Assembly (NCBI RefSeq): GCF_000058485.1
Contig: NC_008278.1
Coordinates: 4,458,962-4,522,961 of the forward strand
Direction: 5' to 3'
DNA from: Frankia alni ACN14a
Lineage (GTDB): Bacteria; Actinomycetota; Actinomycetes; Frankiales; Frankiaceae
Length of the DNA: 64,000 nt
How positions within the stretch are numbered: position 1 is the stretch's first letter; every line of letters begins with the position of its first letter. The notes below the pieces were generated by a model. The model was not told the origin of the DNA, did no database searches, and saw only the letters and a list, made by a program, of their open reading frames with translations. Positions 30,735-55,078 of this stretch are shown one piece after another. The position numbers and the translations under genes are program-made.

Positions 30735-31388
30735 ATGGGATGTGTCCTCACTGTCAACGTCGCCGTGGTCCGGACCGACGCGTGGACCGGGAGGCAGGGG
30801 CGCAGCGGGATCGACAAGCGTCCCGTCGAGGGGCCGGTGCACGTCGGCCGGGTCGGCCTGCGCGGAGACACCATCTGCGACCTGACGTTTCACGGCGGTG
30901 TCGACCGGGCCGTGTACGTGTTCGCGCACGAGGACTTCTCCTGGTGGTCGAGTCTCCTCGACCGCGATATTCCTCCCGGTGGCTTCGGTGAGAACCTGAC
31001 CTCGGTGGGAATGGACGTCACCGGCGCGCGGATCGGCGAGATCTGGGCCGTCGGGTCCGCCGTGGTCCAGGTGACCGCGCCGCGCACCCCGTGCCGCGTC
31101 TTCGCCGGGTTCTGGGATGTCCCCGATCTCGTTGCGCGCTTTTCGCGGCGCGGTACGCCCGGCGCATACCTGCGGGTGCTGACCGTAGGCGAGGTCGCCG
31201 CCGGGGACCCGGTCACCGTCCTGCACCGTCCCGATCACGGGATCACCGTCGGGCAGGTCTTCCGGGCGGTCATGACCGACCCCGACGAGCTGCCCGCGCT
31301 CGGCGGCATCACGGACCTGCTCCCGGAGGACATCCGCCACCGGGTCCAGCGCCGGCTGGCCCGATCCGCCGCCAGCACCGGCGGGTAG
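30735..31388 (+). CDS. MOSC domain-containing protein (YiiM-like)
   Basis: A 217-residue MOSC-domain protein. Characteristic blocks are DKRPVEGPVHVGRVGLRGDT, DLTFHGGVDRAVYVFAHED, PPGGFGENLTSVGMDVTGAR, IGEIWAVGSAVVQVTAPRTP and then CRVFAGF, whose Cys is the conserved residue thought to bind molybdenum cofactor or carry sulfur. YiiM-like stand-alone MOSC proteins reduce N-hydroxylated compounds in E. coli. ATG 30735 starts the first strand. It converges with the siderophore locus, which begins 72 bp further on the other strand. The N-hydroxy chemistry of that locus makes the neighbour worth noting, but the opposite orientation gives no evidence of shared function. Confidence 0.88.
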   Translation: MGCVLTVNVAVVRTDAWTGRQGRSGIDKRPVEGPVHVGRVGLRGDTICDLTFHGGVDRAVYVFAHEDFSWWSSLLDRDIPPGGFGENLTSVGMDVTGARIGEIWAVGSAVVQVTAPRTPCRVFAGFWDVPDLVARFSRRGTPGAYLRVLTVGEVAAGDPVTVLHRPDHGITVGQVFRAVMTDPDELPALGGITDLLPEDIRHRVQRRLARSAASTGG

Positions 31389-31460: not shown

Positions 31461-34400
31461 TCAGAACTTCAGGTACATGTCGTCCGGGATGATCGGCTGG
31501 TGGTAGGTGCACGATCCGGACAGCACGGTGGATCCGTGCAGCCGGGACCTGGGAATGAGAATCTTGTCGCCGTCACGCAACGCGATCTTGTGGGTGACGT
31601 TGTTCCAGAAGTGCATGTCGCCTGACTCGATCATGACCAGTCGGTGCTCGTCGTGGACGTGCGTCGTCGACGTCTCGTCGCACGACTCGACGAACGTGTC
31701 CAGGTCGACCTCGATCCCCTCGGTCGTGAGGTAGGCGTCGATGGCCCGCGCCTTCGCCTTGTACTCCTCGATCGAGTCCGCCCAGGCGATCTGCGCGGCG
31801 AGGTCGCGGTCCCACCGGCGGGCGAGTTCGGCGGCGTCGACGAAGCCGGCGTGGAAGGCGGCCAGGGCCGCGTCGCCCGACAGCGCGACCAGCGGGGTGA
31901 GCAGCCGGCCGACCAGGTCGTCCAGGGCGTCCGGGGTCACCGCCGGCGGTCGCGTGGTGAACAGGGCCGGCCGCTCGCCGAGGCCGTCCTCGACCGCGTC
32001 CGCCCAGGCGGTGGCGACGACCGCGTCGTCGATGCGCTGGTGCACGAACGCGCCGAGCAGTTCGGCGTGCCGGTGCGGCGCGCGGGACAGCAGGTGCAGA
32101 TGGTTGCCGCGGGCCAGCGAGGTGTTCAGGTGGAGCTGCCAGTACGCCCCGACCGTCGGGGTGAGCCCGGCCGCGGCGAGCAGGGCCGTCCACGCCGACG
32201 AGTCCGCCACCCAGCGCCGGTAGTCGTCGAGCAGCAGTTCCCGGGCGGCCGCGTGGGCGGGCCCGTACTCGCCGAGCGACGCGCGGGCGGTCGCCGTGCG
32301 TGCCGCGGGCAGGAACGCCGAGAGCTGCAGCAGCGCGAACGTCGTCGCCTCGCGGCGCTCACGGGTGCCGCGCAGCACCGCGAACGCCTCTCCCGGACGG
32401 TCCCGGCGTTCCTCCCAGTAGCCGCGCAGCTCGCCCAGCACCCCGTCGACCGACGGGCCGGCCGGGCCGGCCGGGCGGGACGGGCGCTGGGACGCCAGGA
32501 ACGAGAACAGGTGGCGTTCGAGGACCGGCTGGGCGAGCGCGCCGCGCAGCCGGTTGCCCGCGCCGTAGAAGTCCGCGCCGTCGCGATCGGCCGCCGCATT
32601 GCGGTTCGGCGGCAGGTACAGCAGGTCCGCGTCGTAGATGTTGCGCAGCATCCGGTGCCCGAGCAGGCCCGAGAGCTTCAGCGTGTCGTCCGGTCGCAGC
32701 GCGGTGCCGTAGTCCAGCCAGGCCAGGTCGGCGGGCCGGACCGGGCGGCGGTACGGGTCGTCCTCGGTCGTCAGCTCCTCCCATGCGGCCGGGCGGAAGG
32801 CGGGGTTCGAGGCGAACGAGCGCACCAGCGCGTGCGCGCCCGGGCCGTCCTGGGCGGCCTCGACCCGGCGGGCCAGCTCGTCGAACCCGGCCGGCTCGAC
32901 GGGTTCCAACGGGCCGGTCTGCTCGGCCGGCGCCGTGATCCGCTCGGCCGGCGCCGGCGCCGTGATCTGGTCGGCCGGCGCCGGCGCCGTGAACTGGTCG
33001 GAAAGCATGGAGTTCCCTCCCGTACGGGGTTGGTCGTGGGCGGCGGGTGGGCCGGCTGCGGCGAGCGCGCGCCGGTCGATCTTGCCGGCCGCGGTCAGCG
33101 GCAGCTCGGCGACGTCGACGAAGGTGTCCGGGACCATGTGCGCAGGCAGCTGGCCGGCCAGCACGGCGCGCAGGTTCGCCGGCCCGCCCGCCCCCGCGCG
33201 CACGCAGTACGCCCGCAGCTCGTCGTCGACCGACTCGCCGTCGCCCGCACTGCCGTCGCCCGCACTGCCATCGCCCGCACTGCCATCGCCCGCCGCGCCG
33301 TTGCCCGCCGCGCGGGGGACGACGACGACGGCGGCGTGGCGGATGCCGGGCTGACCGCACAGCACGTTCTCGATCTCCTCCAGCTCCACCCGGAAGCCGC
33401 GGATCTTCACCTGGTTGTCGGCCCGGCCGAGGAACTCGATCTCCCCGTCGGCGCGGAAGCGGCCCAGGTCCCCGGTGGCGTACATCCGGCTGCCGGGAAC
33501 CGGGCTGAACGGGTCGGGCACGAACTGGTCCGCGGTGCGACGCGGATCGTTGAGGTAGCCCCGGGCCAGCGGCAACCCGCTGATGAACAGCTCGCCGGTG
33601 GCGCCGAGGGGCACTGGGTTGTAGTCGGCGTCCAGGACCCGGATCTGGGTGTTCGGGTTCGGCCGGCCGATCGACACGCGGGCGGTGGCCTGGTCCGGGT
33701 CGAACACCCGGCAGGAGACGCCGATCGTCGCCTCGGCCGGGCCGTAGCCGTGGTAGAGCCGGGCCCGCCACCGCTGCCGAAATCGCCGGTAGGCCTCGTC
33801 GCGCAGAACCTCGCCGCCGCACCAGACGTGCCGCAGCGACCGTCCCGCCTCCTCGGCGTCCGGACGTTCGAGCATCGCGCCGAGCATGGCCGGCCCGACA
33901 TAGCAGAACGTCACCGCCTGCGCGTGCACGATCGCGAGCAACGCGCCCGGCTCCGTCTCGGCTCCGGGCGGCGCGATCACGATGCGCGCCCCGGCGACCA
34001 GCGGCAGGAAGATCTCGTTGATCGAGATGTCGATGCTCAGCGGCGCCTTGTGTAGGACCGTGTCGTCGCCGGTGAGGCCCAGCAGGTCGACCTGCCAGCG
34101 CAGCCGGTTGCAGATCGCCTGATGACGGATCATCACGCCCTTGGGCGTCCCGGTCGATCCGGAGGTGTAGATGACGTAGGCGAGGTTCTCCAGATCCACA
34201 GCGGAGTAGGGGCCCCCAGCCGAGTAGGGGCCCCCAGCCGAGTGCGGGTCCGCGCCGGAGCTCGGGTCCACGGCCGGTACCGCCCGGGCGGACGTGCCGG
34301 CGGTGGCGAGCCGGCCGGCGGGGTCCAGCCGCAGCAGCGGCACGAAGCCGGCGCCGGCCGACAGCTGCGGCGGGGCGCCGGCCGTCCCGGCCACCACCGC

Positions 34401-34853
34401 CGAGATCCGGGCCTCGTCGGCCACCGCGCTGATGCGCCGGGCCGGCCAGGAGGCGTCCAACGGGACGAACGCGCCGCCGGCACGCAGCACGCCGAGCAGG
34501 GCCACCACCTGAGCGGCCGAACGTGGCAGGCACACGCCGACGGTCACCTCCGGGCCGACGCCGACTGCGCGCAACGACGCGGCGAGGGCCTCGGCCCGTC
34601 GTTCGAGGTCGGCGTAGGTGAGGGTGACGGCTCCGTCCGCCTCCCGGTCGACCAGGTCGACGATGGCGGTTGCGTCCGGTGTCCGGCGGGTCGCCTCGGC
34701 CACCAGGGCGGTGAGCGAGCGCCCGACAAGCGGGTCCACCCGCCCGGTGGAGAAGTCCTCCGCGTCCGCTTCCCGCCGGCCGAGGTCGATGCCGCCCTGG
34801 GCGGCGTCGCCGGGGGAACCCGGCGTGGGGCTGGAAGGCCGGCTCGTGACCAT
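31461..34853 (-). CDS. Adenylation domain fused to SznF/GrbD-like helical domain and cupin
   Basis: A 1130-residue fusion. Residues about 35-600 are a complete NRPS adenylation domain ([43 protein letters not shown]). Its pocket reads D-I-N-Y-W-G-G-I-G-K by eye, the code known for N5-formyl-N5-hydroxyornithine in coelichelin synthetase. There is no carrier protein. Residues about 650-1050 align with the N-terminal and heme-oxygenase-like domains of SznF (ASNPAF, DDPYRRPVRP, IYDADLLYLP, LGEYGPAHAA, YWQLHLNTSL), but most diiron ligands appear replaced. The cupin keeps its three His: His1065 and His1067 in THVHDEH, His1106 in RSRLHG. By analogy the cupin would form the N-N bond of graminine. It follows the YcgG-MbtH gene by 15 bp, with GGGGAG before ATG 34853. 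Confidence 0.85.
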   Translation of the reverse strand: MVTSRPSSPTPGSPGDAAQGGIDLGRREADAEDFSTGRVDPLVGRSLTALVAEATRRTPDATAIVDLVDREADGAVTLTYADLERRAEALAASLRAVGVGPEVTVGVCLPRSAAQVVALLGVLRAGGAFVPLDASWPARRISAVADEARISAVVAGTAGAPPQLSAGAGFVPLLRLDPAGRLATAGTSARAVPAVDPSSGADPHSAGGPYSAGGPYSAVDLENLAYVIYTSGSTGTPKGVMIRHQAICNRLRWQVDLLGLTGDDTVLHKAPLSIDISINEIFLPLVAGARIVIAPPGAETEPGALLAIVHAQAVTFCYVGPAMLGAMLERPDAEEAGRSLRHVWCGGEVLRDEAYRRFRQRWRARLYHGYGPAEATIGVSCRVFDPDQATARVSIGRPNPNTQIRVLDADYNPVPLGATGELFISGLPLARGYLNDPRRTADQFVPDPFSPVPGSRMYATGDLGRFRADGEIEFLGRADNQVKIRGFRVELEEIENVLCGQPGIRHAAVVVVPRAAGNGAAGDGSAGDGSAGDGSAGDGESVDDELRAYCVRAGAGGPANLRAVLAGQLPAHMVPDTFVDVAELPLTAAGKIDRRALAAAGPPAAHDQPRTGGNSMLSDQFTAPAPADQITAPAPAERITAPAEQTGPLEPVEPAGFDELARRVEAAQDGPGAHALVRSFASNPAFRPAAWEELTTEDDPYRRPVRPADLAWLDYGTALRPDDTLKLSGLLGHRMLRNIYDADLLYLPPNRNAAADRDGADFYGAGNRLRGALAQPVLERHLFSFLASQRPSRPAGPAGPSVDGVLGELRGYWEERRDRPGEAFAVLRGTRERREATTFALLQLSAFLPAARTATARASLGEYGPAHAAARELLLDDYRRWVADSSAWTALLAAAGLTPTVGAYWQLHLNTSLARGNHLHLLSRAPHRHAELLGAFVHQRIDDAVVATAWADAVEDGLGERPALFTTRPPAVTPDALDDLVGRLLTPLVALSGDAALAAFHAGFVDAAELARRWDRDLAAQIAWADSIEEYKAKARAIDAYLTTEGIEVDLDTFVESCDETSTTHVHDEHRLVMIESGDMHFWNNVTHKIALRDGDKILIPRSRLHGSTVLSGSCTYHQPIIPDDMYLKF

Positions 34854-34868: not shown

Positions 34869-36155
34869 TCAGACGGAACTCGTGGCGACCGGCCCGCGGC
34901 CCGCCGCCGGATCCGGGCCGCCGACCACGCCGTACCGGCCGAAGCGCACCCGCGGCGCACCGCCGGACGAGCCGGCGCCGCCGGACGAGCCGGCGCCGGC
35001 GTGTCCCGACATCCGCCGGCGCAGGCTGCGTGGCCGCATGTCGGCCCAGGTCAGCTCGATGTTGTCCAGGCAGTGCTGCCGGCTGCCCGTGACGGAGGTG
35101 TCGAACCAGCCGAGCGCGTTGGGTCGCCCGTGCGGCCACACCGAGTACTGCTGCTCCTGGTTGACGACCACCTTGAACGGACCCGTCGCGCCCGGCTCGG
35201 TCGGCGCCGGCCGCGCCGACTCGGCCACCGATTCCCCGGCCACCGATTCCCCGGCCACAGATGCCCCGGCCACAGATGCCCCGGCCATCGCCCGGGGCGT
35301 TTCGACGGTCGCCTTCCCGGCGGCGGTGTCGGCCGACCGGCGGCCGGCTCCGGCGTGGAACGGGCAGCTGTCGGCGACCGAGGCGTCGTCGCGCAGGTAG
35401 TACTGCTTCCATTCCCGGTTGGCCGGGTCGCCGTAGGAGCCGAGCAGCGGCGTCGAATCCACCTCGTCCGTCCGGGCGAGGCGTTCGCGAATGACTTTCC
35501 GTGCGGCCGCGCCCCGCGGGCTGGTCGGTTCCAGCCCGGTGAAGACCCAGCGCGGCTGGAACGTGATGGTGAAGACCGGACCGCTGCGGCTGCGCAGCCG
35601 CCGGTGCGCCGGCGTGTTGCAGACGACGAAGATGGGGGTGCCGCGGAAGCTGAACTCCCAGCCGGGATCGTCGGTGTCGGTCGGGATGTCCGACGGCCAG
35701 GGCTCGCCGTCACGGTCGTGCAGGTAGCTCAGGATCGACCAGAACCGCTGCTCGTAGGACAGGACGTCGTCGTTGTCCTGCCCCGCCGCCCCCTCGCCGG
35801 ATCCGAAGAACACGACCAGCGAGGTGTCCCGCGATATCGACTGGTAGACCGACAGGTAGGTGGCCAGGATGTCCGGCAGGACGGACCAGGTCCGCTCGTC
35901 GCGCAGATCCTCGACGAAACCGAACCGCAGCCCGCCCCTGTGGGCCGCGGCCACCGCGAAGACGCAGGGAAAGGGCTCGCTGTCGGACTTCAGCGTCGCC
36001 ATGATGTCCCGCGCGCATCCGGTGCCCCAGCCCGGCATCGGGCCGATGGCCAGATCCAGGATCTCCTCGCGCAACGCGTCGGTCGCGCCCGTCTGGCCGG
36101 TCTGGCCGGTCGCGCCGGCCGTGCTGCGCCCGCTGGCTTTCGGCGTGTCTCGCAC
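34869..36155 (-). CDS. YqcI/YcgG-family heme-type N-hydroxylase fused to MbtH-like domain
   Basis: A 428-residue fusion. Residues about 25-270 are a YqcI/YcgG (PF08892, GntA-like) domain: PCVFAVAAAHRGGLRFGFVE, LVVFFGSGEG, PIFVVCNTPAHRRLRSR, FQPRWVFTGLEP and the ending DSCPFH, with Cys264 and His267. Characterised members are heme enzymes that N-hydroxylate guanidine groups, including arginine. A linker of ASVAG/ESVAG units leads to an MbtH domain (about 325-390): FKVVVNQEQQYSVWPHGRP, then LGWFDTSVTGSRQHCLDNIE and LTWADMRPRSLRR. MbtH domains chaperone adenylation domains. The likely role is hydroxylating arginine for graminine while supporting the A domain encoded next. The start is GTG 36155. 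The C-terminal tail is Gly/Ser-rich and unrecognised. Confidence 0.85.
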   Translation of the reverse strand: MRDTPKASGRSTAGATGQTGQTGATDALREEILDLAIGPMPGWGTGCARDIMATLKSDSEPFPCVFAVAAAHRGGLRFGFVEDLRDERTWSVLPDILATYLSVYQSISRDTSLVVFFGSGEGAAGQDNDDVLSYEQRFWSILSYLHDRDGEPWPSDIPTDTDDPGWEFSFRGTPIFVVCNTPAHRRLRSRSGPVFTITFQPRWVFTGLEPTSPRGAAARKVIRERLARTDEVDSTPLLGSYGDPANREWKQYYLRDDASVADSCPFHAGAGRRSADTAAGKATVETPRAMAGASVAGASVAGESVAGESVAESARPAPTEPGATGPFKVVVNQEQQYSVWPHGRPNALGWFDTSVTGSRQHCLDNIELTWADMRPRSLRRRMSGHAGAGSSGGAGSSGGAPRVRFGRYGVVGGPDPAAGRGPVATSSV

Positions 36156-36417: not shown

Positions 36418-38150
<1,733 letters not shown>

Positions 38151-38154
<4 letters not shown>

Positions 38155-41100
38155 CGTTCGCTCCCGGCCGTGCGGGCAGCGTCGGGCAGTCCAGCGTCGT
38201 CGGACAGGCCGGCCCTGTCGAGGATGGCGACGGGGTCGAGGATGGCGACGGGGTCGAGGATCGCGGCGGGGTCGGGCGTGTCGGCGGGGCCGGGCGGCCC
38301 GACCGGGTCGAGCAGCCGCGCCTCGATCTCGTCGTCGGAAAGGCAGGCGATCTCCCAGATGATCGCCGCGACACGATCGAGCCGGCCGGGGGTGGACTCG
38401 GCCGCGCGCATGGCCTGCGCAAGCGCGGCGACCGTCGGCGCGCCGAAGAGCATGCGGACCGTCACTTCTCCGGTGTCGAGCTCGTCGCGCAGCCGGGCCA
38501 CCATCGCGGTGGCGAGCACGGAGTCGCCGCCGAGGGCGAAGAACTCGTCGGTGACTCCGAACGCTCCGGAGACCCCGAACTCCCCGGCGGCACCGACCGT
38601 GTCGGCGGCTCGGACTGTGTCGGCGGCTCGGACTGTGTCGGCGGCTCGGACTGTGTCGGCGGCTCGGACTGTGTCGGCGGCTCGGACTGTGTCCGTCACC
38701 CCGACCGTGTCGCGAGGCAGGATCTCCCGCCAGACTGAGAGGATCACCCGTTCCAGGTCGGAGGTCGGCGCGGTGGCGGCCGGCCGGGTCCCGTCCAGAT
38801 CGCGCTCGAGCAGGGCGCCGACCGCCTTGCGGTCGATCTTCCCATTGGCGCTCAGCGGGAGTTCGGCCACCGCGACGACCCGGTCGGGCACCATGTGCGG
38901 GGGCAGGACGGCCCGCAGGCCGGCGCGGACCGTCGCCAGGTCCGTCTGGTCGGCCAGGTCCGTCTGGTCGGCCGGATCCGTCTGGTCGGCCGGATCCGTC
39001 TGGTCGGCCGGGCGCGTCTGGTCGGCCGGGCGCGGTGGCCCCTCCGCCGCGGTCAGGACGACGACGGCCCCGAGCGCGCTCGGATGTCCGTCCGCGCCAC
39101 CGGTCAGCGCGGCCACCCCGGCGCGGACGCCGGGCACCGACGCGAGCGCCGCCTCGATCTCGCCCAGCTCCACCCGGAAGCCTCTGATCTTGACCTGATG
39201 GTCGCGGCGCCCCAGGAACTCGACGGTGCCGTCCAGAAGGTAGCGGGCGAGGTCGCCGGTGCGGTACCACCGCTCGCCCGCGTGGCGGACGAACCGGTCG
39301 GCCGTGCGCTCCGGGTCGCCCCGGTAGCCGCGGGCGACGCCGGCCCCGCCGATCCACAACTCGCCGACGACGTGGTCGGGGCAGTCGCGGCCCAGACCAT
39401 CGACCACGCGCAGCCGCACGCCCCGCAGTGGGGTGCCGTAGGGCACCGAGCGCCACGCGGGCGGCACCGGCCCGCCCCCGACGACCTCGCAGACGGTGGA
39501 GTGGATGGCCGTCTCGGTCGTGCCGCCGAGCCCGAGGAACCGGCAGCCGGCGACGGCGGCCTCAAGCCGGCCGGGCAGGTCGACCCCGACCCGGTCCCCG
39601 CCGAGGAGCACCGCGCGCAGGCTGGCCCCCAGCGGCACCCCGGTGGCCAGGACCAGGTCCAGCACCGCCGGCACGCAGTTGAGGATCGTGACCCGGTGGG
39701 CCGCGATGAGCTCGGCCCAGCGGGTGGCCTCGCGCCGGGACTCCTCGTCCACGACGACCACCGCGCCGCCGGACGACAGCGGGGCGAAGACGTCGAAGAC
39801 CGACAGGTCGAAGTCGAGAGCCGACACGCCCAGCGTGCGGTCGCCCGGGCCGAGGCCGAGCCGGTCGGCCAGGTCGTCAATGGTGTTCATCGCGGCCCGG
39901 TGGCTGACCTCGACGCCCTTGGGCTGCCCGGTCGAGCCCGAGGTGAACAGCACGTAGGCCGGTTCGTCCAGGCGGGCGGGATCGTCGGCCGCGCTCAGCG
40001 TGAGCGCCCCGGACGCAGTGGCCGCGCCGGCGGCGAGCGCGTCGTCGAGGCTGAGCGGCCGGACGCCGACCGGCCAGTCCGGCCCGGACGGTGCCGCCGA
40101 CCCATCGGCGGACGAGGCGCGATCGGCAGACGAGGCCCGATCGGCAGACGAGGCGGTGGACGGCACGGTGATGACCGTGCGCAGGCCGGCGGTGTCGACG
40201 ATCCGCGCGACCCGGGCCGCCGGCTGCTCCACCCCGATCGGCACGTAGGTCGCCCCGGCCGCCAGCACGCCGAGGATGGCGACGACCTGCTCCGGCCCCT
40301 TCGGCAGGCTGACGCCGACCAGGTCGCCCGGCCGCACGCTCCGGGCGACGAGCGCGCCGGCCACCGCCGTCGCCTGCCCGGCGAGCTCGCCGTAGGACAG
40401 CGACCGGCGCACCGGCGACTGTGCGCCGCCGGCCGGTGCGTCCCACACCAGGGCGGGTGCGTTCGGGTCGTCGCGGGCCGCCGCGAAGAACCCCTCGTGG
40501 AGCAGGCGGGTGGACAGCGGCCCGGCGATCGTGTTGACCCGGGCGCGCACCGCCCTCGTCGAGGCGTCGAGCAGGCCGTCGACGGGCTGGTCCCAGGCGA
40601 CGGCGGCCGCGCCGGTCACCGCGCTCCCGTCGGTCGGGCCGAGGTCGGCCAGGCCGCGCACGAGCCGTTCGAACACGCTGAACATCGCGTCGACGACGCC
40701 GGGCGCGAAGGTGTCCTCGCGGACGTCCCAGTTGACCAGCATGCCCCCGTCGAGCTCGGTGACCTGGGCGTCGAGCAGGACCTGCGGGCCCTGCGAGATG
40801 ATCCACTCCGGCTCGCCGAACTCCCGGCGCACCGAGGCGTCGAACAGCTCGCCGAGGCCGAGCGCGCTGGTGAACACGACCGGCGCGAGCACCGGTTCGC
40901 CGCGCAGGCGGCCCAGGTCACGCAGCACCTCGACGCCGGAGTAGTCGGCGTGGGCGGCGTCGGCGTGCAGCCGCGCCTGGAGGCGGCGGGCCCGCTCGAC
41001 GAACGGGATGCTGTCGGTCAGGTCGACCTCCAGCAGCACCGAGCTGGTGAAGTCGCCGACGATCCGGTTGACGTCGGGGTGGATCGGCTCGCGGTCGAAC

Positions 41101-43739
41101 AGGGGGACGTTGAGGAGGAATCGCGGCTGCGCGCTCCAGCCGCCGAGCACCTCGGCGAACGCGGTCGCGACGGCCATGGCCGGGGTGAGTCCGTGGCGGT
41201 GGGCCGCCCGGCCGAGGGCCGCACGGGCCGACGGCGGCAGCCGGAAGTGCCGCCGGGACACCCGGGGCGCTCCGCTCGGCGCGCCGGCGGCGCCCGGCTG
41301 CGGTGCCAGCGGGAGCTGCGGTGCCAGCGGGAGATGCGGTGCCAGCGGGAGCTGCGGTGCCCCCGGCAGGCCGGGCAGGCGGTCGAGCCAGGCCCGCCGG
41401 GCCTGCTCGGCCGCCGCGCGTGCGTCGACGTCGCGCTCCGCCCGGTAACGGCGGTAGGTGAAGGCCGGTGCCGGAGCCGGAGCGACCTCGTCCGGGCGCC
41501 CGTACTCCTCGGCCAGGTCGGCCAGCAGGACGCGGTAGCTGACCGCGTCGGCGGCGACCATGTCGACGTCGAGGTGGAACCGGGTGGTGCCGTCGGGCCG
41601 CAGGCTCAGCGCGGTCGAGAAGACCTCGCCCCGTTCGATGTCGAGCATCTGGTGGGACAGCCGGTCGCGCACCGCGGCCAGGCGCGCGGTGACCTCGTCG
41701 GCGTCCAGCTCGCGCAGGTCGTGCACGGTCAGGCCGCGCCAGCCCGAGCGCGCCTCGACGATCTGAGCGCCGTTGTCGGTGATCCGGGTCCGCAGCGCCT
41801 CGTGCCGCTCGACGAGACGCTCGATCGCGGCGGTCAGCCGGGCCGGCTCAAGACCGCTGCCGTCGAACTCCGTGTAAAGGTGGGCGGCGACGCCGCCGTA
41901 GGTCTGCCCGTCGCCGCGCCCGATCCAGTAGGCGTGCTGCATGTGCGCCAGCGGGAACTCGGCGCCGTCCATCTCGCCCTCGCCGGCCTCGACCCCGGCC
42001 ACCTCGACCCCGTTCGCCTCCGCTCCGGCGTGGGGCGTCGCGACGGTCGTCGGGCCGGCCGGGGCCGGCTCGCCGGCAGGTCCTTCGGCCCCTGGCTGGC
42101 GCGCGGCTGCGGGCTGCCGGCTGGCCAGCAGCGTGAACCAGCCGTCCACAGTCGGGTTCTCGGCCAGCTCCGCGAAGTTGACCTCGATGCCGGCCCGCCG
42201 CCACTGCCCGACCGCGCGGATGAGCGCGATCGACTCCAGGCCGCGCTCGAAGAGGTTGTCGTCGTCGGCGAGATCGGCCGGGTCCTCCTCGACGAGCTCG
42301 GCGGCGATGCACCGGAGCCTCTCGAGATCGTCGACCGCGGTCGCCGACGCCGACGCCGGGACCGGGACCGGGTCCGCCTGGACGGGTTGGGCTGACGGGA
42401 CCGGCTGGGCCGGCACGAGGAAGCGGCTGACGCTGCGCAGCTTCTCCTTCGTCTCCGTCAGCTCCCGCTCCGGGCGCGACGCCCCGACGACCCCGGCCCC
42501 GGCGCGCAGCCAGGTCCGGCCGCCGCGCTGGAACACCGTCCGCAGGACGAGGGCGGCGTCGAGGGCGCCGTCCGAGGTCGCGCTGATCACGGCACCGCTG
42601 TAGAGGCCGCGCGGCGACGGCTCGTAGCGCCGGATCGCCGCGCAGGCGGCGTCCTTGGGCACCCCGCTGGCGGTGACGGACGGGAAGACGGCCCCCAGGG
42701 CGTCCCACCCGTCGAAGCCGGCGGCGAGCCGGCCGCTGACCCGCGAGGCCAGGTGCTGCACGCTGCCCCGCTCGAGGACGGTCAGGAACTCGTCGACGAC
42801 CAGCGTGCCCGGCGCGCACAGCGGCCGGAGCTCGTCCTGAGCCACCTGCACCGACACCGCGTGCTCGTAGATCTCCTTCGGGTCGCGCAGCAGCGCCTCC
42901 CGCCGGGCCCGGTCGCCGCCCGGGCCGTCCGGCCCGACACCGCCGTCGAACGCCGTCGTGCCGGCCAGCGGCTGGGTGGAAACCCGGCCGTCGGCGCCGA
43001 CCTCGACCACGGTCTCCGGGCTGAACCCGATCGCGCGCACGCCGTCCAGATCGAGCAGGAAGGACCGGGCCGGGGTGTTGCCGCGCCGCCCCCGCTCGTA
43101 GGTCGCGACCAAGTCGATCTCGCCCTCGACGGGGACGACCCGGGAGAGGATCACCTTGCGGAACCGGCCGGCCTGGATGTCCTCGACGGCACCCGCCACG
43201 ATCCGCCGGTAGTCCTCGGCGCCGTGGTCGAGATCGGCCAGCGGCTGCGCCGGCCCCGGCTGCGCGTCGGCCGGACCGCCGATGGTCTCGGCCAGCGTGT
43301 CGAGGTCGGCCGCCTCGGCCGCGCGCAGCAGCGCGCCGTCCGCCGCCAGCCGCGCCTCGCGGGCCGGGATGACCAGGTGGACGAGCGGGTCGGGGCCGAC
43401 CGGCCCGGGCAGCCCGAGCGCCCGGGGTCCGAGTTCGAAGCCGGCCCAGCCGGCCGCCCGCCAGTCGGCGACCGGCAGGTTCGCCAGGACGCGGGCCAGG
43501 ACGCGCAGCGGCGCGCCGTCGACCGCCTCGACTCGCCAGTCCTCCCCGCCCGCGCGGTACCGGATCTCGTCCCAGGACAGGACGATCTCGGCCAGGACGC
43601 CCGAACCGCACAGCCAGGCGCCGTCGTGCTCGTAGACGCTCACCGGTGCCGCGGCGTGGCGGGCGAACCGCGCCGCCGCCGCCAGCGGATCGCCGGCGAG
43701 CGGCACCGTCCGTTCGTGGTAGACCACCGACGCCGTCAT
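38151..43739 (-). CDS. Salicylate synthase-ArCP-Cy-A-PCP fusion NRPS
   Basis: An 1862-residue fusion. Residues 1-445 are an MbtI-like salicylate synthase ([44 protein letters not shown]), converting chorismate to salicylate. An aryl carrier domain follows, with phosphopantetheine Ser503 in [10 protein letters not shown]. Next is a cyclisation domain with the DxxxxD motif ([12 protein letters not shown], near 727), then an adenylation domain with a pocket read as D-L-F-N-L-G-L-I-H-K. That pocket is nearest Cys codes but Ser or Thr cannot be excluded. A PCP with Ser1740 in GGDSVLA follows. Five DTVRAA repeats are inserted just before this PCP core. The product should be a hydroxyphenyl-thiazoline or -oxazoline unit. 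ATG 43739 overlaps the mbtH stop (ATGA). Confidence 0.92.
38601..38690 (-). repeat. Five 18-bp in-frame repeats inside the PCP domain
   Basis: Five tandem copies of GTCGGCGGCTCGGACTGT encode DTVRAA units in the loop before the carrier-protein serine. Similar in-frame repeats lie at about 38937-39025 (PADQTD units) and 41290-41360 (PLAPQL units) in the same gene. Confidence 0.85.
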
Positions 43740-44029
43740 CGCGCAGCGCCGGAGTCGACATCGCCGCGATTACCCTGCGCGTCCAGATCGCCCGCCGCCC
43801 CGCAGGCGGCCGCGCGGTCGGCCTCCATCCGGGTGATCAGGCTCGCCGGGCGTAGATCCGTCCAGTGGGCCTCGACGTACTCGAGGCAGGACGACCGGCT
43901 CGCGGCGCCGTGCACGCTCGTCCACCCGGCCGGTACGGGCGCGAATGTCGGCCACAGCGAGTGCTGACCCTCGGTGTTGGTCAGGACGAAGAAGCTGCCC
44001 TTGTCGTCATCGAACGGGTTGGTCGACAT
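43736..44029 (-). CDS. mbtH: MbtH family protein
   Basis: A 97-residue MbtH-like protein that binds and activates NRPS adenylation domains. The family core is complete: [33 protein letters not shown] and [18 protein letters not shown]. The last 25 residues extend beyond the usual 70-residue core. AGGAGA lies eight bases before ATG 44029. Its stop overlaps the start of the salicylate synthase-NRPS fusion gene. It is the first gene after an iron box, so it leads the iron-controlled biosynthetic transcript running down to 31461. A second MbtH domain occurs fused to the YcgG-type enzyme in the same operon. Confidence 0.95.
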
Positions 44030-44166: not shown

Positions 44167-45342
44167 TCAGCCTCGGCGTAGCTCTCCGCTGAGCAGCCAG
44201 ATCAGGTAGAGACCGCCGATCGCGCCGGTGCTGAGCCCGACGGGCAGCTGGATCGCGTGCGGCAGCCGCTGCCCGGCGAAGTCCGCGGCCACCATGATCA
44301 GCGATCCCGTCAGCGCGGCGGGCACCAGGGACGTCGTCCCGGCCCGCACCAACCGGCGGGCTGTCTGCGGCGCGGCCAGCGCCACGAAGGCGATCGGACC
44401 CGCCGCCGCCGTGGCCACCGCGGTCAGGGCCACCCCGCAGACCACCAGCGACAGGCGCACCCGCTCGACCGGGATCCCCAGCGCGAGCGCGAGATCGTCC
44501 CCCAGCTCCACGATCTCGATGCGGCGGGCGAGGAGCAGGGTGATCGGCAGCAGGACGGCGAGTGCCGCCCACAGCGGGCCCGCGTACTCCCAGCTCCGGC
44601 CGTTGAGGCTGCCGACCAGCCAGCGCTGGGCCTCCTGCGCGGCGTCGAGCGAGGAGCGGCTGAGCAGGTAGGAGTTCACCGCCTCGGCGACCGCGGACAC
44701 CCCGATCCCGACGAGGATCAGCCGCGTCCCCTGCATGCCGCGGCGGTAGGCCAGGGCGTACACGAGCAGGGCCGTGACGAGCCCGCCGAGGATCGCGCCG
44801 GCCGGGGTGCCGATCGGACTGTCGGGGAAGACCAGGATGACCAGAAGCGCACCCGTCGCCGACCCCGTGGTGAAACCGATGATGTCGGGGCTGCCGAGCG
44901 GGTTGCGGGACAGGCTCTGGAACAGCGCTCCGGCCACGCCGAGCGCGGCACCCACCCCGATGCCGATCACCAGCCGGGGCAACCGGAACCGCGTCACGAT
45001 GATCTCCGCGCCCGGTGGGCCCGCGCCGAACAGGGTGCGCAGCACCTCGCCCACCGTCGCCGGGTACTCGCCGGTCATCAACGTCCAGACACCGAAGATC
45101 AGTACCAGCGCCGCCAGCACGACGCCGACCACGACGGCGCGCGGCCGGACCCGGATCGACACGCGGCCCGACAGCAACCGCACGGCCCGCCACGGAACCG
45201 GTTGAACCGGCTGAACCGGCTGAACCGGCGGCACCGGCGGCACCGGCGGCACCGGCGATCCAGTGTCGGCGGCGACCGCCCGGGTGCCTCCCACAGCGCC
45301 CCTGGCAGCGCCCCTCACAGCGCCACGGTCCGGCGGCGGCAC
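44167..45342 (-). CDS. FecCD-family iron-siderophore ABC transporter permease
   Basis: A 391-residue permease with about nine to ten membrane helices. Family marks: FRLPRLVIGIGVGAALGVAG, LFQSLSRNPLGSPDIIGFTT, LVGSLNGRSWEY and PIAFVALAAPQTARRLVR. It would pair with the adjacent FecCD protein to import the ferric siderophore delivered by the lipoprotein encoded at 55228. The first 50 residues contain Pro-Val-Gln repeats (PVPPVPPVQPVQPV) not typical of the family, so the start may lie further in. As drawn, GTG 45342 overlaps the upstream permease gene by 28 bases. No ATPase gene for this importer lies in the window. Confidence 0.92.
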   Translation of the reverse strand: MPPPDRGAVRGAARGAVGGTRAVAADTGSPVPPVPPVPPVQPVQPVQPVPWRAVRLLSGRVSIRVRPRAVVVGVVLAALVLIFGVWTLMTGEYPATVGEVLRTLFGAGPPGAEIIVTRFRLPRLVIGIGVGAALGVAGALFQSLSRNPLGSPDIIGFTTGSATGALLVILVFPDSPIGTPAGAILGGLVTALLVYALAYRRGMQGTRLILVGIGVSAVAEAVNSYLLSRSSLDAAQEAQRWLVGSLNGRSWEYAGPLWAALAVLLPITLLLARRIEIVELGDDLALALGIPVERVRLSLVVCGVALTAVATAAAGPIAFVALAAPQTARRLVRAGTTSLVPAALTGSLIMVAADFAGQRLPHAIQLPVGLSTGAIGGLYLIWLLSGELRRG

Positions 45343-46361
45343 AGGGCGATCAGGACGGGGGCTCCGATGAGGGCCGTGACGATCCCCGCCTCCAGCTCGC
45401 TCGGGGCCACGACGACCCGGCCGATCACGTCGGCCAACAGCACCAGGCCGGGCGCCAGCACCGCGGAGTAGGCCAGCACCCAGCGGTTGTCCGGCCCGGT
45501 GACCAGGCGGGCGGCATGCGGCACGGCCAGCCCCACGAACCCGATCGGCCCCGCGATCGCGGTGGCCGCCCCGGACGTCAACGTCACCGCGAGCGCGGCG
45601 ACGGCCCGGACCGTCCCGACCCGAACACCCAGCGCCCGCCCGGTCTCCTCCCCCAGCGCCAGCGCGTTGAGGCTCGAGCCGAGACCCAGGGCAAGCAGCG
45701 CGCCGACCACGGCGAAGGGGCCGACCTCCCAGACGATGGTCATCGGCCGACCCGCGAGCGACCCGACGGCCCAGAACCGGTAGCGGTCGAACGCCTGCCC
45801 GTCGATCAGGAGGACGGCCCCGATGAATGCGGTCAGTGCGGCGCTGACCGCGGCGCCGGCCAGCACCATGCGCTCGGGCGACGCGGCCCGGCCGAGCGAA
45901 CCGAGCGTGTGGACCACGACGGCGCTCGCCGCGGTGCCCGCCAGCGCGAACCAGACGTAGCCGGCCGGGGTGGACACTCCCAGGATCGCGATGGCGACGA
46001 CGACCGCCGCCGAGGCGCCGGTCTCGAGCCCCAGCAGGCCGGGATCGCCCAGCGGGTTGCGGGTCAGCCCCTGGATGACCGCCCCGGCCAGGCCCAGCGC
46101 GAGGCCGACCAGCACGCCGAGCACCGTGCGCGGCAGCCGCAGCTCGCGCACGATGAACGCGTCGTCGCTGCCGTCGTCGTGGCCGAGCGCGTGCCAGACG
46201 GTACCCAGGTCGATCTGCTTGGCGCCCACGGCGAGGCTGAGCGCGACGGCGCAGGCGAGGACGCCCAGCGCGACGACGAACCCGAGGCCGCGCACGAGCG
46301 GACGGTGCCGGTCGGCCCCGCCGCCGGCCGTGGCGCTGCGCACCTCGGTCGAGGTCAGCAT
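45315..46361 (-). CDS. FecCD-family iron-siderophore ABC transporter permease
   Basis: A 348-residue membrane permease of the FecCD family. Marks are RELRLPRTVLGVLVGLALGL, VIQGLTRNPLGDPGLLGLET, FWAVGSLAGRPM and GPIGFVGLAVPHAARLVTGP. It is the heterodimer partner of the next permease. ATG 46361 overlaps the end of the upstream ABC exporter gene by seven bases, tying import and export genes into one transcript. Predicted substrate is the ferric form of the siderophore made by this locus (inference from context). Confidence 0.93.
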   Translation of the reverse strand: MLTSTEVRSATAGGGADRHRPLVRGLGFVVALGVLACAVALSLAVGAKQIDLGTVWHALGHDDGSDDAFIVRELRLPRTVLGVLVGLALGLAGAVIQGLTRNPLGDPGLLGLETGASAAVVVAIAILGVSTPAGYVWFALAGTAASAVVVHTLGSLGRAASPERMVLAGAAVSAALTAFIGAVLLIDGQAFDRYRFWAVGSLAGRPMTIVWEVGPFAVVGALLALGLGSSLNALALGEETGRALGVRVGTVRAVAALAVTLTSGAATAIAGPIGFVGLAVPHAARLVTGPDNRWVLAYSAVLAPGLVLLADVIGRVVVAPSELEAGIVTALIGAPVLIALCRRRTVAL

Positions 46362-49857: not shown

Positions 49858-50885
49858 CGGGCCCCCGCGGACGGCTCGGCCATCGCCACCGCGATCCGGC
49901 GTGGGCCGGTGTAGGGCTCCCGGCCGTGGGCGACGGACATGTTGTCGACGACGAGCAGGTCGTCGCGCGCGTAGTCGAAGCGCACGGACGCGGCCCGGTA
50001 GCACTGCCGCAGGTGCGCGACGACGTCGTCCGGGATCACCCCGCCGTCGCCGTAGCGGGAGTTGTTCGGGAAGCCGTCCGGTCCGTAGGCGTCGAGCAGC
50101 ACCTCGCGGACGTCCGCGGGCAGGCTGCTCTCGTGAAAGATCACGACGTGGTTGAACCACACCGGCAGGCCCGTGACCGGATGGCGGTGCACGGCGTCGC
50201 GCACGGCGGTGGTCCGCAGCCCGTCGGCGCCGAGCCACGTCGGCGTCAGCCCGCCGCGGGCGCACAGCCGCTCGACCTGCGCGCGGCTGTCGGTGTCGAA
50301 GGCGGTCCGCCACCTCAGGCCGACGTCCTCGCCGTAGGTGCGCACGGCCATCCAGCGGCGGCGCTCGAACTCCGCGCGGACGTCCGGGTCGATCATCTCG
50401 TGCACCGCGTGGACGTGGGCCAGCGGCGTCGCGCCCTGGGTCAGCGCCGGCTCGACGCAGTGGAAGAACAGGGTCAGCGGCCAGGTCGCCTGGTAGGACA
50501 TCTCGTTGTGCAGCGGGATCTCCGCGGCCGGCGGGTAGTCCGTCGAGGTGTAGACGTTGCCCTTGATCACGCTGCGGGGTGAGGACTGCTCGGTGTACGG
50601 CAGCGGCGTGCCGGACAGCGCCCGCACCGCCTCCTCCAGCCCCTCGGCCCCGCCGACGTCGAACCCGCGCAGCAGGACCGCCCCGCGGGCGGCGAGGTGG
50701 TCGCGCAGCCGGTCCCGGTCGCGGCGCAGCAGGTCGACGACGGGCCCGTCGCCCTCGACGACCAGGGGAAGCCCGGTGGCGCCGGGACCGCCCGCCGGCC
50801 ACCCGATCGCGTCCGTCATGGCGGGTTCGGCCCTTCTCGCTCGGCTGTGCGGATCGGTCGTTGCGGTGGAGGGGAGGTTCGTCAC
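49854..50885 (-). CDS. TauD/TfdA-family (SyrP-like) Fe(II)/2-oxoglutarate dioxygenase
   Basis: A 343-residue non-heme iron oxygenase. Iron ligands are seen as IPLHNEMSY (HxE variant) and the distal His in [10 protein letters not shown], with GPRRIAVAM supplying the 2-oxoglutarate Arg. NRPS-linked SyrP-like members beta-hydroxylate carrier-bound amino acids, often aspartate, giving iron-binding hydroxy-acids. The substrate here is not determined. GTG 50885 overlaps the upstream NRPS stop (GTGA), in keeping with the rest of the operon. An alternative ATG at 50819 ([11 protein letters not shown]) would shorten it by 22 unconserved residues and may be the true start. Confidence 0.88.
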
Positions 50886-53800
50886 GGGCGCAACGCCTGC
50901 GCGACGAGGGGGCCGACGGCCGGCAACGCCGCCGGGGACAGCAGGTCCTCGTGGGCGAGGTCCACGGCATGGACGCGCAGCCCGCCGGCGACGTAAGGCG
51001 CCCAGTCCGTCGGGTCGGCCGGTGTCTCACCGGGCTCGGGCAGGGCCCGGACGAACTCCACCCGCCCGCCGTACCGCCGGGGCTTCACGCCGGTGTCGAC
51101 CGACGCGACGGCCAGCAGGCTGCGGGCCGCCGCGCCGATGCGCCGCTCACCGGCGCCGGCCAGCAGGCTGCCGGTCCGCTCGGCGAGGGCGTGGGCGACG
51201 GCGGGGGTGACCTCGTCCGGGTGCAGGTCGTCGACCGGATGCCCGGAGCGTTGCAGCAGGGTGTGCAGAAAGCGGGAGACCGTGTTCACCGGCTCGGCGG
51301 ACGCGGCGCCGCCTGATGCGGCACCCTGGCCGCCTCCCCCGCCTCCCCCGCCTCCCCCGGCGTCCCCGGCGCCACCGGCGTCCCCGGCGCCACCGTCCAG
51401 CTCGGGATAGCCGTCCAACATGACGATCGACGGAACCTCGCGGCCCCGCGCCTCAAGCTCGCAGGCGACCGCGTGGGCCAGCACGGCGCCCAGGGACCAG
51501 CCGAGCAGGTGGATCGGTCCGCTGGGTTCGGCCGCAGCCGCGACGTCGGCGTAGCGCTCGGCGATCGCGCGGACCGTGGGCGGCACGTCCGGGTCGATCT
51601 CGGTCGCCTGCAGGCCGTAGACCGCCCGCTGCGGGCCGAGATAGCGCAGCAGTCCGGCATAGGTCCAGCTCAGGCCCAGGCCTGGATGCACGCAGAACAG
51701 CGGGGCCGCCGTCGTGCCCCGGTCCCGCGACGGCGGGCGTTGCAGCGGCAGGAGGGTGTCCAGGGCGGTGTCCGCCACCAGGTCCGCGGTCCCGTCCAGG
51801 CGACCGGCGATGCCGGCGGGCGTGGGCGCGCGCAGGATAGCGCTCAGCGGCAGGTCGGCGCTCAGGTCCCGGCGGATGCGCACGACGAGGCGGGCGGCGA
51901 GCAGGGAGTGCCCGCCGAGGGCGAAGAACGAGTCGTCCGGGCCGACCTCCGGCAGACCGAGCAGATCGGCGAAGATCTCGCACAGCGCCCGCTCCGTGTC
52001 GTTCGCCGGGGCTCGGCCGGTGGTGGCCCCGCCGGTGAACGTCGGCGCGGGCAACGCCCGGCGGTCCAGCTTGCCGTTCGGCGAAACCGGAAACGCCGCC
52101 AACACGACCACGGCCGCAGGCACCAGATAGTCCGGCAACACCACCGCCGCAGCGGCACGAAGCCCATCAGGGTCGACCGTGCTGGCGTGATCGGCGGTGA
52201 CGTAGCCGACCAGACGGGTGACACCACTGTCGGTACGAGCAACCACCACCGCCTGGCCCACCCCAGGCAGCCCACCCAACACCGCCTCGACCTCACCGGG
52301 TTCCACCCGATAGCCACGGATCTTCACCTGCTCGTCCGCTCGGCCCAGGAACTCCAACGTGCCCTCGGGCTGCCACCGCACCAGATCCCCCGTCCGGTAC
52401 AGCCGCACCCCATCCCCGAACGGATCCGCCACGAACCGCGACGCCGTCTCCCCCGACCGACCCGCATAACCACGCGCCACACCCGCACCACCCACATACA
52501 ACTCTCCCGGCACCCCGACCGGCACCGGCAACAACCCGCCGTCCAACACAAACGTCCGCAGCCCCGCGACCGCCCGGCCAATATGCGGCCCTGAACCGCT
52601 TTCCACGGATGTCCACGTCGCATCCACCGTGCACTCCGTCGGACCATAAAAATTCAACCCCAGCACACCCGCCGAACCCAGCGCATCCCACAACCGGGTA
52701 CCCACCGCCTCCGCCCCCGTCGCCACCACCGAAGGCACCCACTCACCGGACAGCAGACCGTCGTCGACCAGCAGTTCCAACAACGACGGAGGCACATCCA
52801 CGAAATCGATCCGCTCGTCGCGGACCAACCGCACGATCCCCGCCGCATCCCCCATCAGACCATCCGGCAGAACATGCATCGCATGCCCCGCCAACATCCA
52901 CACCAGCGGATCCAACGACCCGTCAAACGCGAACGACAAAACATTGAGAACCCGCAACCGCCGGCCACCCAGCCGCCCCACCACCGGATCGATCACCGTT
53001 GCCCGATGCGCCAACGCCAGATTCACCAGACCACCATGCGTACCCACCACACCCTTCGGCCGCCCCGTCGACCCCGACGTGAACACCACATACGCCGCCG
53101 AACCCGCACCCACCCCCGCGCCACAACCCGAACCCGAACCCGCATTCGTATTCGTATTCGTATTCACCTCCGGCCAGGAACCCGGGTCGTCCACCAAAAT
53201 CGTCCGACCCGAGAATCCCGCCTGCGCCACCCGATCCGCCACCACCGACGACGTCACCACCACCAACGGAGCCGCCTCCCCCACCACCACACCCACCCGC
53301 GACACCGGATGCGCCGGATCCACCGGCACCACCACACCCCCCGCCTTCCACACCGCCACCATCACCACCACCACCTCCACACCCCGCGGCACCACCACCC
53401 CCACCCGCACCTCAGGCCCCACCCCCACCGACACCAGACACGCCGCCAACCGCGACGCAACCTGATCCACCTCACCAAACGACAACGACACACCCCCACA
53501 CACCACCGCCACCTCACCACCACCAGCAGCCACCACCCCATCCCACACACCCACCACCGACGAGAACGAAACCGGATGCTCCGGCCCCACGTTCTCGGCG
53601 GCGTTCTCCGCCGCGAACCGCGGCGGTGCGGGGACGGCGAGCCGGGCGACCGGCAGCGCGTCGGGGGCCTCCACCATCGCCGCGAACACCTCGCCTAGCA
53701 GCTCGCCCACCTCGCGTGCGCGGTGCGGGGCGAGGAGCCCGCGATGGTGCTCCAGCTGCAGTCGCAGCTCGGCGCCGGGGTCGGCGACCAGCGTGAGGGG

Positions 53801-55078
53801 GTAGTGGGTCGCGTCCTCGGTGCGCGCGGCGGTGATCTCGACGCCGAGGGCCGCCCGGACCCGGTCGATCGCGGCGTTGTCGACCGGATAGGACTCGACC
53901 ACCACCAGGGTGTCGAACAGCGCTCCGAGCCCGGTCAGCGCCTGGACCTCGGCGAGCCCGAGGTGGTGATGGTCCAGTGTCTCGCTCTGGGTCCGGTGCA
54001 GCCGTCCCAGCAGGGCGGCGACCGTCTCCGCCGGGTCCACCGTGACCCGGACGGGGACGGTGTTGATGAACAGGCCGACCATCGACTCCACCCCGGCGAT
54101 CTCCGGCGGGCGGCCCGAGACCGTCGCGCCGAACACCACGTCACCGCGCCCGACGAACCGGCTCAGTGTGATCGCCCAGGCCGCCTGGACGACGGTGCTC
54201 AGCGTGACGCCGCTGTCGCGCGCCAGGCCCCGCAGGCGTTGCTGGATGTCCGCGGCGAGCGGGACCGGGATATGGTCCGGCGCCGCCGCCGTGACGTCCC
54301 CGCCCGGAGCCCCGGCTCCGGCCTCGCCCGCGTTCCCGACCATGGGAGTGGGCGGGGCGGCGGGAGTGCGTGGCACGGTGGCAGGAGTCGGTGGCACGGT
54401 GGCAGGAGTCGGTGGGGCGGTGGCGGCCAGCAGCGTCGGCTCGGTCAGCCCGTCGAGGACCCGACGCCAGACCGCCAGGGACTCGTCGCGGTTCCTGGCC
54501 GCCAGCCACGTCAGGTAGTCCCGGTAGGGCCGGGGCCGTGGGGCCGGCACCCCGGCGTAGAGGGAGAAAAGGTCTCTGAGCAGCAGGGGCGCCGACCAGC
54601 CGTCCAGCAGGATGTGATGACTGGTGATCACCAGCCGGTGTGCCCGCGGCCCCGTCCGGATGAGCAGGAAACGGATCAGCGGCGGCGCGTCCATGACGAA
54701 CGGCCGGGCCCGCTCCGCCGCCGCCAGTCCCCGAACCCCCGGACCGGAGCCACCCGAGCCGGCACCGGCACCGGCACCGGCACCGGCACCGGCACCGGCC
54801 ACAGTTTCGGCCTCAGCCTCGGTCCAGGGCACGTCGACCTGGCGCAGCACCACCTGCACCGCTCCGGTGGGGACGACGACGAACGCCGTCCGCAGGTTGG
54901 CATGCCTGTCCACGAGGGCCTGCGCGGCGGCCCGCAGCCGCGCGGGGTCCAGTGCCCCCTCGAGTTCGAGGATCGTCTGGACGGTGTACGCGGCGTCGCT
55001 GTCCGCCATCGCGTGGAAGAACAGGCCTTCCTGTAGGGGGGCGAGGGGAAGGACCTCCTCGATGTTGGAGCGGTTCAC
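50882..55078 (-). CDS. NRPS C-A-PCP-TE, terminal module
   Basis: A 1398-residue synthetase. The N-terminus [20 protein letters not shown] is typical of a condensation domain following an epimerisation domain; its active site is [10 protein letters not shown] near residue 155. The adenylation domain (about 490-1000) has a pocket read as D-G-D-D-V-T-F-V-D-K. It shares Asp278, Val299 and Asp331 positions with the arginine code, but I do not assign a substrate. The PCP serine is Ser1058 (GGHSLLAAR). The thioesterase (about 1110-1398) has Ser1195 in GWSLGAV and should release the peptide. Gly/Ala repeats occur in the C domain (near 54770) and the thioesterase. The A domain is almost identical in DNA to one at 61660-63333. 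It lies 149 bp below the receptor gene. Confidence 0.92.
52015..53574 (-). repeat. Duplicated adenylation-domain DNA, copy 1
   Basis: Long runs are identical to 61660-63333, in the same orientation, covering nearly the whole A domain. The block is unusual in composition, rich in CCACCAC-like runs, unlike flanking NRPS DNA. It suggests recent duplication or gene conversion. Confidence 0.88.

Follow-up and report, generated by a model that had tools for sequence, protein, structure and literature searches.

An adenylation domain fused in frame to a SznF-like protein in a predicted siderophore cluster of Frankia alni ACN14a

Introduction

Why an adenylation (A) domain should be joined directly to a protein resembling SznF, an enzyme of N-N bond formation, with no carrier protein attached, is the question raised by a single open reading frame (ORF) of Frankia alni ACN14a. 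The window analysed here is a 64,000-nt stretch of this genome, and nucleotide coordinates for this strain are window positions. We propose, with a probability of about 0.5, that the fused protein makes and activates graminine (N-delta-hydroxy-N-delta-nitroso-ornithine) in a cluster for a phenolate-type siderophore; the odds attached to this reading and to its rivals are not exclusive.

Results

A single reading frame

The elements of the fused gene are as follows.

31461..34853, (-) strand: fused A-SznF-like ORF, 1130 aa (ORF call, Pfam, SznF similarity)
33078..34703, (-) strand: A domain, code DINYWGGIGK, motifs A2, A3, A4, A5, A6, A7, A8 and A10 (Pfam and motif reading)
33016..33021, (-) strand: GGGAGG, likely Shine-Dalgarno sequence of a once-separate SznF-like gene (also in Frankia AiPs1)
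33006..33008, (-) strand: internal ATG at which the SznF-like gene (515 aa) probably once started (junction reading)
31461..33008, (-) strand: SznF-like region, degenerate haem-oxygenase-like diiron oxygenase (HDO) part and cupin (similarity, alignment, model)
31500..31697, (-) strand: cupin strands carrying the HxH...H triad, residues 1053-1118 of the model (alignment, model)

The ORF is uninterrupted, starts with ATG and has a third-position G+C content (GC3) of 0.94. Pfam places AMP-binding at residues 53-434 (4.6e-89) and AMP-binding_C at residues 547-591 (26.6 bits, cut-off 24.5), and the A domain takes up roughly the first 600 residues; the core motifs A2-A8 and A10 of nonribosomal peptide synthetase (NRPS) A domains, including the A10 lysine, are present. 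Residues 616-1130 align with chain residues 21-461 of SznF (6m9r; E 1.2e-43). An initial annotation, made from the sequence alone, had described an intact A domain joined directly to a SznF-like protein and free of carrier and condensation (C) domains, and both points stand: the 1130 residues form one ORF with the core motifs in place, and a domain search of that ORF found neither a C nor a peptidyl carrier protein (PCP) domain inside it. Assignment to the SznF family rests on similarity to SznF because the Pfam HDO and Cupin_2 models give no call: PF14518 (Haem_oxygenas_2) has four matches genome-wide and none in the window, and Cupin_2 scores 19.2 bits on the ORF, below its cut-off of 27.2. 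A predicted model of the SznF part (from residue 651; predicted local distance difference test score, pLDDT, 72-97 by block) matches SznF chains with target-normalised template-modelling (TM) scores of 0.87-0.89. Only this part of the fused protein was resolved; most A-domain residues fall below pLDDT 50, for which poor alignment of the A rows is the probable reason. That the in-frame junction reflects a sequencing error was rejected, since AiPs1 has the same junction.

The SznF-like half and the neighbouring hydroxylase

The same annotation saw in the C-terminal half the helical-plus-cupin module that makes N-N bonds in SznF. Similarity, fold and the cupin histidines bear this out, but the HDO half is degenerate. 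Under the ligand numbering that we take to be that of SznF, in which the counted HDO residues land on the expected letters of the alignment, E189, E215, E281, H311, D315 and H318 of SznF correspond to A, D, R, R, V and D in the fused protein, and H225 falls in a gap; the set of seven diiron ligands by which SznF family membership is judged is thus not found here. Our own sequence was aligned with those of 39 SznF-like loci, drawn from a scan with two peptide patterns that reaches close relatives only and may have left out our own genome. The 39 rows that cover the six HDO ligand columns each keep two or fewer of them, and the three cupin histidines are kept in all 39 rows that cover them. An active HDO in the fused protein was rejected on the loss of its metal ligands, and because this half is degenerate the protein lacks a complete SznF N-N module. 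A ligand-poor HDO has been reported for the NRPS/polyketide synthase-associated SznF group that includes ChmM (PMC10849742), and on its alignment we place the fused protein in this ChmM-type subgroup rather than among SznF-type N-oxygenases.

Hydroxylation may be supplied by the gene immediately upstream.

34869..36155, (-) strand: 428-aa fusion of a YqcI/YcgG haem N-oxygenase type protein with MbtH (PF08892 9.4e-72, PF03621 7e-14)

This is the only PF08892 match in the genome. The cysteine of its FPC motif, Cys64, is invariant in 23 of 23 aligned sequences and, by analogy with Cys47 of ChmN, would be the haem ligand; the NCBIfam GntA model scores 59.6 bits against its own cut-off of 145, so the protein is not GntA. 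In chalkophomycin biosynthesis ChmN, a member of the YqcI/YcgG family, yields N-delta,N-omega-dihydroxyarginine, and ChmM lacks the HDO ligands (PMC10849742). By that analogy, the hydroxylation step is presumably better assigned to the neighbouring YqcI/YcgG protein than to the HDO half. A YqcI gene accompanies 34 of the 39 SznF-like loci, and the remaining five lie on short or broken contigs. With its SznF-like gene adjoining a YqcI/YcgG gene inside an NRPS cluster of metallophore type, the locus has the layout of the ChmM/ChmN (GrbD/GrbE) pair.

Substrate of the A domain

Read at ten positions that we take to be those of PheA, the A domain carries the code DINYWGGIGK, which is shared by an in-module A domain of the same cluster (58461-59930). 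We take this code to be that for N-hydroxy-N-formylornithine, a compound nearly isosteric with graminine. The ChmO A domain was predicted to select N-hydroxyformylornithine and assigned to graminine (PMC11085572). The pattern D[IV]NYWGGI occurs at 23 of the 29 SznF-like loci from actinobacteria where an A domain was readable (22 of 28 genomes, two of the 23 loci coming from one genome), readable meaning that the first eight code positions were read in at least one A domain; this is an association, with G004 as the only control scored. In the 39-locus set, 27 of 45 readable A domains carry the pattern. Because the code recurs in this way, graminine is the probable substrate, as the initial annotation had thought likely. 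N-hydroxy-N-formylornithine is less likely, because the cluster (~4.49-4.54 Mb) has no ornithine N-oxygenase in a genome search that did not extend to formyltransferases; the two strong matches in the genome (2.82 and 6.98 Mb) and the two weak matches (6.46 and 6.68 Mb) all lie elsewhere. In a tree, the sampled A domains with this code are set off from two others of the cluster, a Thr-type and a Cys-type one, on a join of 89/98 that is below the starred level. The string DINYWGGIGK occurs in no open-access paper searched.

Distribution and history of the fusion

The initial annotation knew of no described fusion of this kind, and in the comparison of architectures it is rare. Among 42 genomes examined (our own, 38 from the SznF-like locus scan and three more), the complete fusion occurs in one, our own, and at none of 26 loci outside the family is an A domain in frame with SznF. 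SznF-like proteins themselves (E <= 1e-20) were found in 16 of 393 genomes drawn from the class, a survey that scored three candidates per genome and may have missed members; within the genus 9 of 13 genomes have them, and within the family 15 of 35. Long frames in CpI1 (1115 aa), AgKG'84/4 (1571 aa), G099 (1064 aa), AgB1.9 (813 aa) and L058 (1226 aa) were rejected as fusions, as none of them has an A domain in frame with SznF. No open-access paper searched mentions both SznF and Frankia; the search left subscription papers largely uncovered and looked for an A-SznF fusion by name only to a limited extent.

Within the family the neighbouring genes take several forms. Five of the 15 genomes (R82, AiPa1, F. 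canadensis, F. gtarii and G132) have a separate C-A-PCP gene followed by the SznF-like gene, AgKG'84/4 has A-PCP upstream of it, and in F. tisae a PCP directly precedes it at the end of a contig. In three (CpI1, AgB1.9 and G099) an A gene without C or PCP overlaps a separate SznF-like gene stop to start; the A domain of F. torreyi CpI1 is 93% identical to ours, yet separate. In three others (L033, L035 and L107) the A domain is reduced to a remnant, which in L035 and L107 shares the frame of SznF. Frankia sp. AiPs1 has the in-frame junction, but its A domain is split over two contigs; at that locus (L087, C486) the A core runs into unrelated sequence near a low-complexity stretch, through insertion, rearrangement or misassembly. 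At another locus (L022:15113-17602) one ORF combines DUF7134, a HisKA_3 domain of histidine-kinase type and A-PCP, which may reflect a rearrangement or a chimeric sequence.

The fused A domain is nested within a clade of orthologous A domains (13 rows, 100/100). Because the clade of our strain, AiPs1 and CpI1 is parted from that of AgB1.9 and G099 by lineages with C-A-PCP or A-PCP, loss of C and PCP with retention of A probably happened twice. The missing domains seem to have been lost in particular lineages from a C-A-PCP gene present in the ancestor, and the fusion itself is apparently recent and confined to one lineage, two adjacent genes of a familiar kind of graminine pathway having merged in frame. 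In the C-A-PCP genes of relatives, the first motif histidine of the C domain is lost in six of six read, in part by eye; the second histidine is kept in three, so that not all of these C domains can be taken as dead.

The surrounding cluster and a candidate acceptor

Besides the fused gene and its partner, the cluster comprises the following.

36418..38150, (-) strand: stand-alone aryl-AMP ligase, probably for salicylate, as suggested by the neighbouring synthase; start inferred, domain 36451-37998
38151..43739, (-) strand: NRPS, chorismate-binding (salicylate synthase type)-carrier-C/heterocyclization (Cy)-A-PCP (domain search)
43736..44029, (-) strand: separate MbtH protein (Pfam)
44167..46361, (-) strand: two FecCD iron-siderophore permeases (Pfam)
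50882..55078, (-) strand: NRPS, C-A-PCP-thioesterase (TE) (domain search)
55228..56259, (-) strand: protein of siderophore-binding type, Peripla_BP_2 (Pfam)
56652..63905, (-) strand: large NRPS, partial, running past the window edge (domain search)
(-) strand, last module of the large NRPS, graminine-type with its own A domain: C-A (58461-59930, DINYWGGIGK)-PCP (58206-58394)-C/epimerization (E) (56781-58145, E-like motif)

This gene content points to a phenolate-type siderophore. The A domains at 52067-53503 and 61713-63263 share the code DGDDAGFVDK with one at L024:4047-5582, an apparent module duplication. Directly downstream of the fused gene, on the opposite strand, lies a gene for a MOSC-domain protein (30735-31388, (+) strand), and conflict-type systems recognised by Pfam stand beside the cluster: TIR-TPR (13738-16944), nSTAND1-WD40 (21537-26240) and EACC1-EAD1 (26246-26947).

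Where graminine would be loaded is suggested by relatives. Eight family genomes (CpI1, R82, AiPa1, L033, L035, L106, L107 and L108) have a C-PCP-C/E module without an A domain in the NRPS upstream of YqcI. The last C domain has an E-like motif where it was read (CpI1, R82, AiPa1 and F. canadensis), and in L107 it lies in another frame. In G004, a genome with no SznF match, a related NRPS ends in a module with an A domain of another code, DVWIVGAVNK (L085:10778-12271); over the PCP-E part this NRPS shares 66% identity with the one of CpI1, aligned as two pieces, and the 55 kb around this NRPS contain no YqcI, no SznF and no A domain with DINYWGGIGK. Together, the A-less modules and the in-module A domain of G004 suggest that the graminine cassette replaced an in-module A domain by loading in trans. 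For our own strain the most likely acceptor, and the least certain step, would be the PCP at 58206-58394 of the graminine-type module. The genome as a whole has 59 PP-binding matches, seven of which are small free carrier ORFs (87-121 aa) outside the cluster. In the relatives the A-less C-PCP-C/E module stands near the end of the siderophore NRPS (L016:6068-9289, L037, L038, L033, L035 and L106-L108). The Streptomyces loci L056, L058 and L067, whose clusters contain SznF-like and YqcI genes, also have C-PCP lacking an intervening A domain.

Alternative readings

On whether the A domain works, ratios of nonsynonymous to synonymous substitution (dN/dS, NG86 script) give a divided answer. Among the three closest genomes, the A domain gives 0.23 (0.14-0.34) between our strain and AiPs1, 0.25 (0.16-0.40) between our strain and CpI1, and 0.30 between AiPs1 and CpI1; the SznF part gives 0.38-0.42, YqcI 0.22-0.29, and the in-module graminine-type A domain 0.25 between our strain and AiPs1. 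In the pair AgB1.9 and G099 the values are 0.29 for the A domain, 0.27 for SznF, 0.07 for YqcI and 0.13 for a second stand-alone A domain. By these ratios and the state of its motifs, the A domain is maintained by purifying selection among the closest genomes and decays in others. In L037, L038, L060 and L055, C-A-PCP or A-PCP genes have lost the A10 lysine and their PCPs keep GGHS; these are possibly carriers loaded by another A domain.

A number of observations tell against a fused protein that makes and activates graminine. Against more distant relatives (our strain or CpI1 versus AgB1.9, R82, F. canadensis and F. gtarii) dN/dS of the A domain rises to 0.39-0.61, with 0.29-0.44 for the SznF part; the A10 lysine is absent from the orthologues in R82, AiPa1, F. 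canadensis and AgKG'84/4, that of AiPa1 also lacks the A8 region, and those of AgB1.9 and G099 have changes in A3 and A8 (TSGSTNEPKG, KIGG). All eight genomes with the A-less module hold a second stand-alone A domain with the code, in a clade of its own (100/100), which is the better candidate loader there, and three of the eight (L033, L035 and L107) keep only the remnant of the fused-type A domain. In our own cluster there is no orphan acceptor, since all eight PCPs already have a partner: an adjacent ligase in the case of the aryl carrier, and an A domain of the same module for the rest. The idea in the initial annotation that the enzyme hands its own product to a carrier in trans therefore remains plausible in view of the A-less modules, but loses ground to the second code-bearing A domain of the same relatives and to the A domain or ligase that each PCP here already has. 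As to substrate, 6 of the 29 readable loci lack the code (at three of the six, the A domain read is of aryl-ligase type), 10 of 39 loci have no readable A domain, G012 has an A domain with the code and no SznF match, and in CpI1 the contig with the cluster also carries a homologue of ornithine N-oxygenase, which keeps the formyl-hydroxyornithine reading alive. The code of ChmO differs from the gramibactin type, given as DVHRTGLVAK (PMC10391617), and in the view of the ChmM authors (PMC10849742) this difference could also mean that dihydroxyarginine is loaded and then rearranged on the carrier; N-N bond formation by ChmM has so far not been reconstituted in vitro (PMC10849742).

The strongest rival, a serious possibility though short of an even chance, is that the fused frame is incidental: the SznF-like protein would come mainly or only from the internal start, the A domain would be a separate unit, and the merger would have no biochemical meaning. 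GGGAGG and ATG persist inside the frame in our genome and in AiPs1, and since they survive, a separate SznF-like protein may be translated alongside the fused form. The stop/start overlaps of CpI1, AgB1.9 and G099 are what such a history would leave, and tightly packed genes would agree in frame by chance about one time in three. The join has no stop codon in either of two genomes, which argues for a fusion that is read through, though high GC makes stops rare.

That the A domain is the leftover of a decaying module, like the Pseudofrankia-type remnants, with loading done by the A domain at 58461-59930, seems unlikely to us. The remnants in L033, L035 and L107, the lost A10 lysines and the high dN/dS against distant relatives would all fit such decay, as would the identical code of the in-module A domain. 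What speaks for a working domain is that motifs A3, A5, A7, A8 and A10 are present here, CpI1 differing by one residue in the A8 stretch, and that dN/dS is 0.23-0.30 among our strain, AiPs1 and CpI1.

The YqcI partner raises a further alternative. YqcI is in frame with MbtH at 17 of 38 YqcI-bearing loci (13 of 34, our own and three more, L106-L108) in several genera. Because MbtH proteins bind A domains, the fusion hints that the hydroxylase docks at an A domain. The A domain might then be mainly a docking platform, bound by the MbtH part so that oxygenase and cupin are held together and labile dihydroxyarginine is channelled, and in relatives that keep a PCP the substrate might be carrier-bound; we consider the two together doubtful. 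The recurrence of the fusion, the affinity of MbtH for A domains and the retention of catalytically doubtful orthologues as long reading frames favour such docking; the 21 of 38 loci where YqcI is not in frame with MbtH, and an A part that the predicted model leaves unresolved, do not. Dihydroxyarginine is reported to degrade on standing (PMC10849742), which favours docking too. The predicted model of YqcI-MbtH is weak (mean pLDDT 62.6), and no open-access paper searched contains both YqcI and MbtH, with subscription papers largely uncovered by the search. In the Nocardia loci L061-L064 and L068, a PCP domain follows YqcI after about 100 bases in a different frame.

Discussion

In the mechanism we propose, YqcI/YcgG-MbtH would N-hydroxylate arginine to the N-delta,N-omega-dihydroxy form, as ChmN does, and the cupin of the fused protein would rearrange this intermediate to graminine, the HDO part, whose ligand loss is observed, being structural only. 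The A domain would then form graminyl-AMP and pass graminine to a carrier in trans, which is the least certain step. The gene itself would go back to a C-A-PCP ancestor that shed its C and PCP domains and ran in frame into the downstream SznF-like gene. More speculatively, and improbably in our view, YqcI-MbtH and A-SznF might form a two-protein particle in which MbtH docks the oxygenase on the A domain, the cupin belongs to the chain of that A domain, and arginine is turned into graminyl-AMP with labile dihydroxyarginine never released. If so, coupling to the A domain, or to its carrier in relatives, would explain why ChmM alone showed no activity with free substrates, and the YqcI-MbtH fusion, by recurring, would serve as a general signature of that coupling.

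The separate parts of this system are known, and it is the joining of A and SznF that looks recent. SznF, from streptozotocin biosynthesis, is like the fused protein in full-length similarity, fold and cupin triad; in contrast to SznF, the Frankia protein lacks the HDO ligands, has an A domain in front, and has as its probable product a diazeniumdiolate amino acid, not a nitrosourea. ChmM/ChmN of chalkophomycin and GrbD/GrbE of gramibactin likewise combine a SznF-like protein with an arginine hydroxylase of YqcI/YcgG or related type in a metallophore NRPS cluster, and the HDO of ChmM is degenerate; the A fusion and the YqcI-MbtH fusion belong to the Frankia cluster and do not appear in the available parts of their descriptions. 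In MobF of tistrellabactin a graminine-forming enzyme is also joined to NRPS machinery, a GrbE homologue being fused to the NRPS start (PMC10391617), but there the hydroxylase is the fused part, whereas in Frankia the SznF-like protein is joined to a carrier-less A domain. WS9326A and capreomycin, in which CmnI is loaded by CmnA-A1, provide precedents for trans-acting A domains or an A-less module served in trans; those A domains have no fused tailoring enzyme in the descriptions available, unlike the A domain of Frankia.

Whether the N-N bond forms on the free amino acid or on a carrier as arginine is converted to graminine is a question raised in the study of ChmM (PMC10849742). By joining the proposed N-N enzyme to the domain that likely activates its product, the fused protein offers a compact system in which to test the timing of that bond. 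The recurrent DINYWGGIGK code could serve in searches for diazeniumdiolate metallophores of actinobacteria, and the fusion of YqcI to MbtH hints at the placement of the hydroxylase. The interest of the locus thus lies mainly in its use as a test system and in the surrounding cassette, which together give a handle on the route by which this building block reaches the siderophore assembly line.

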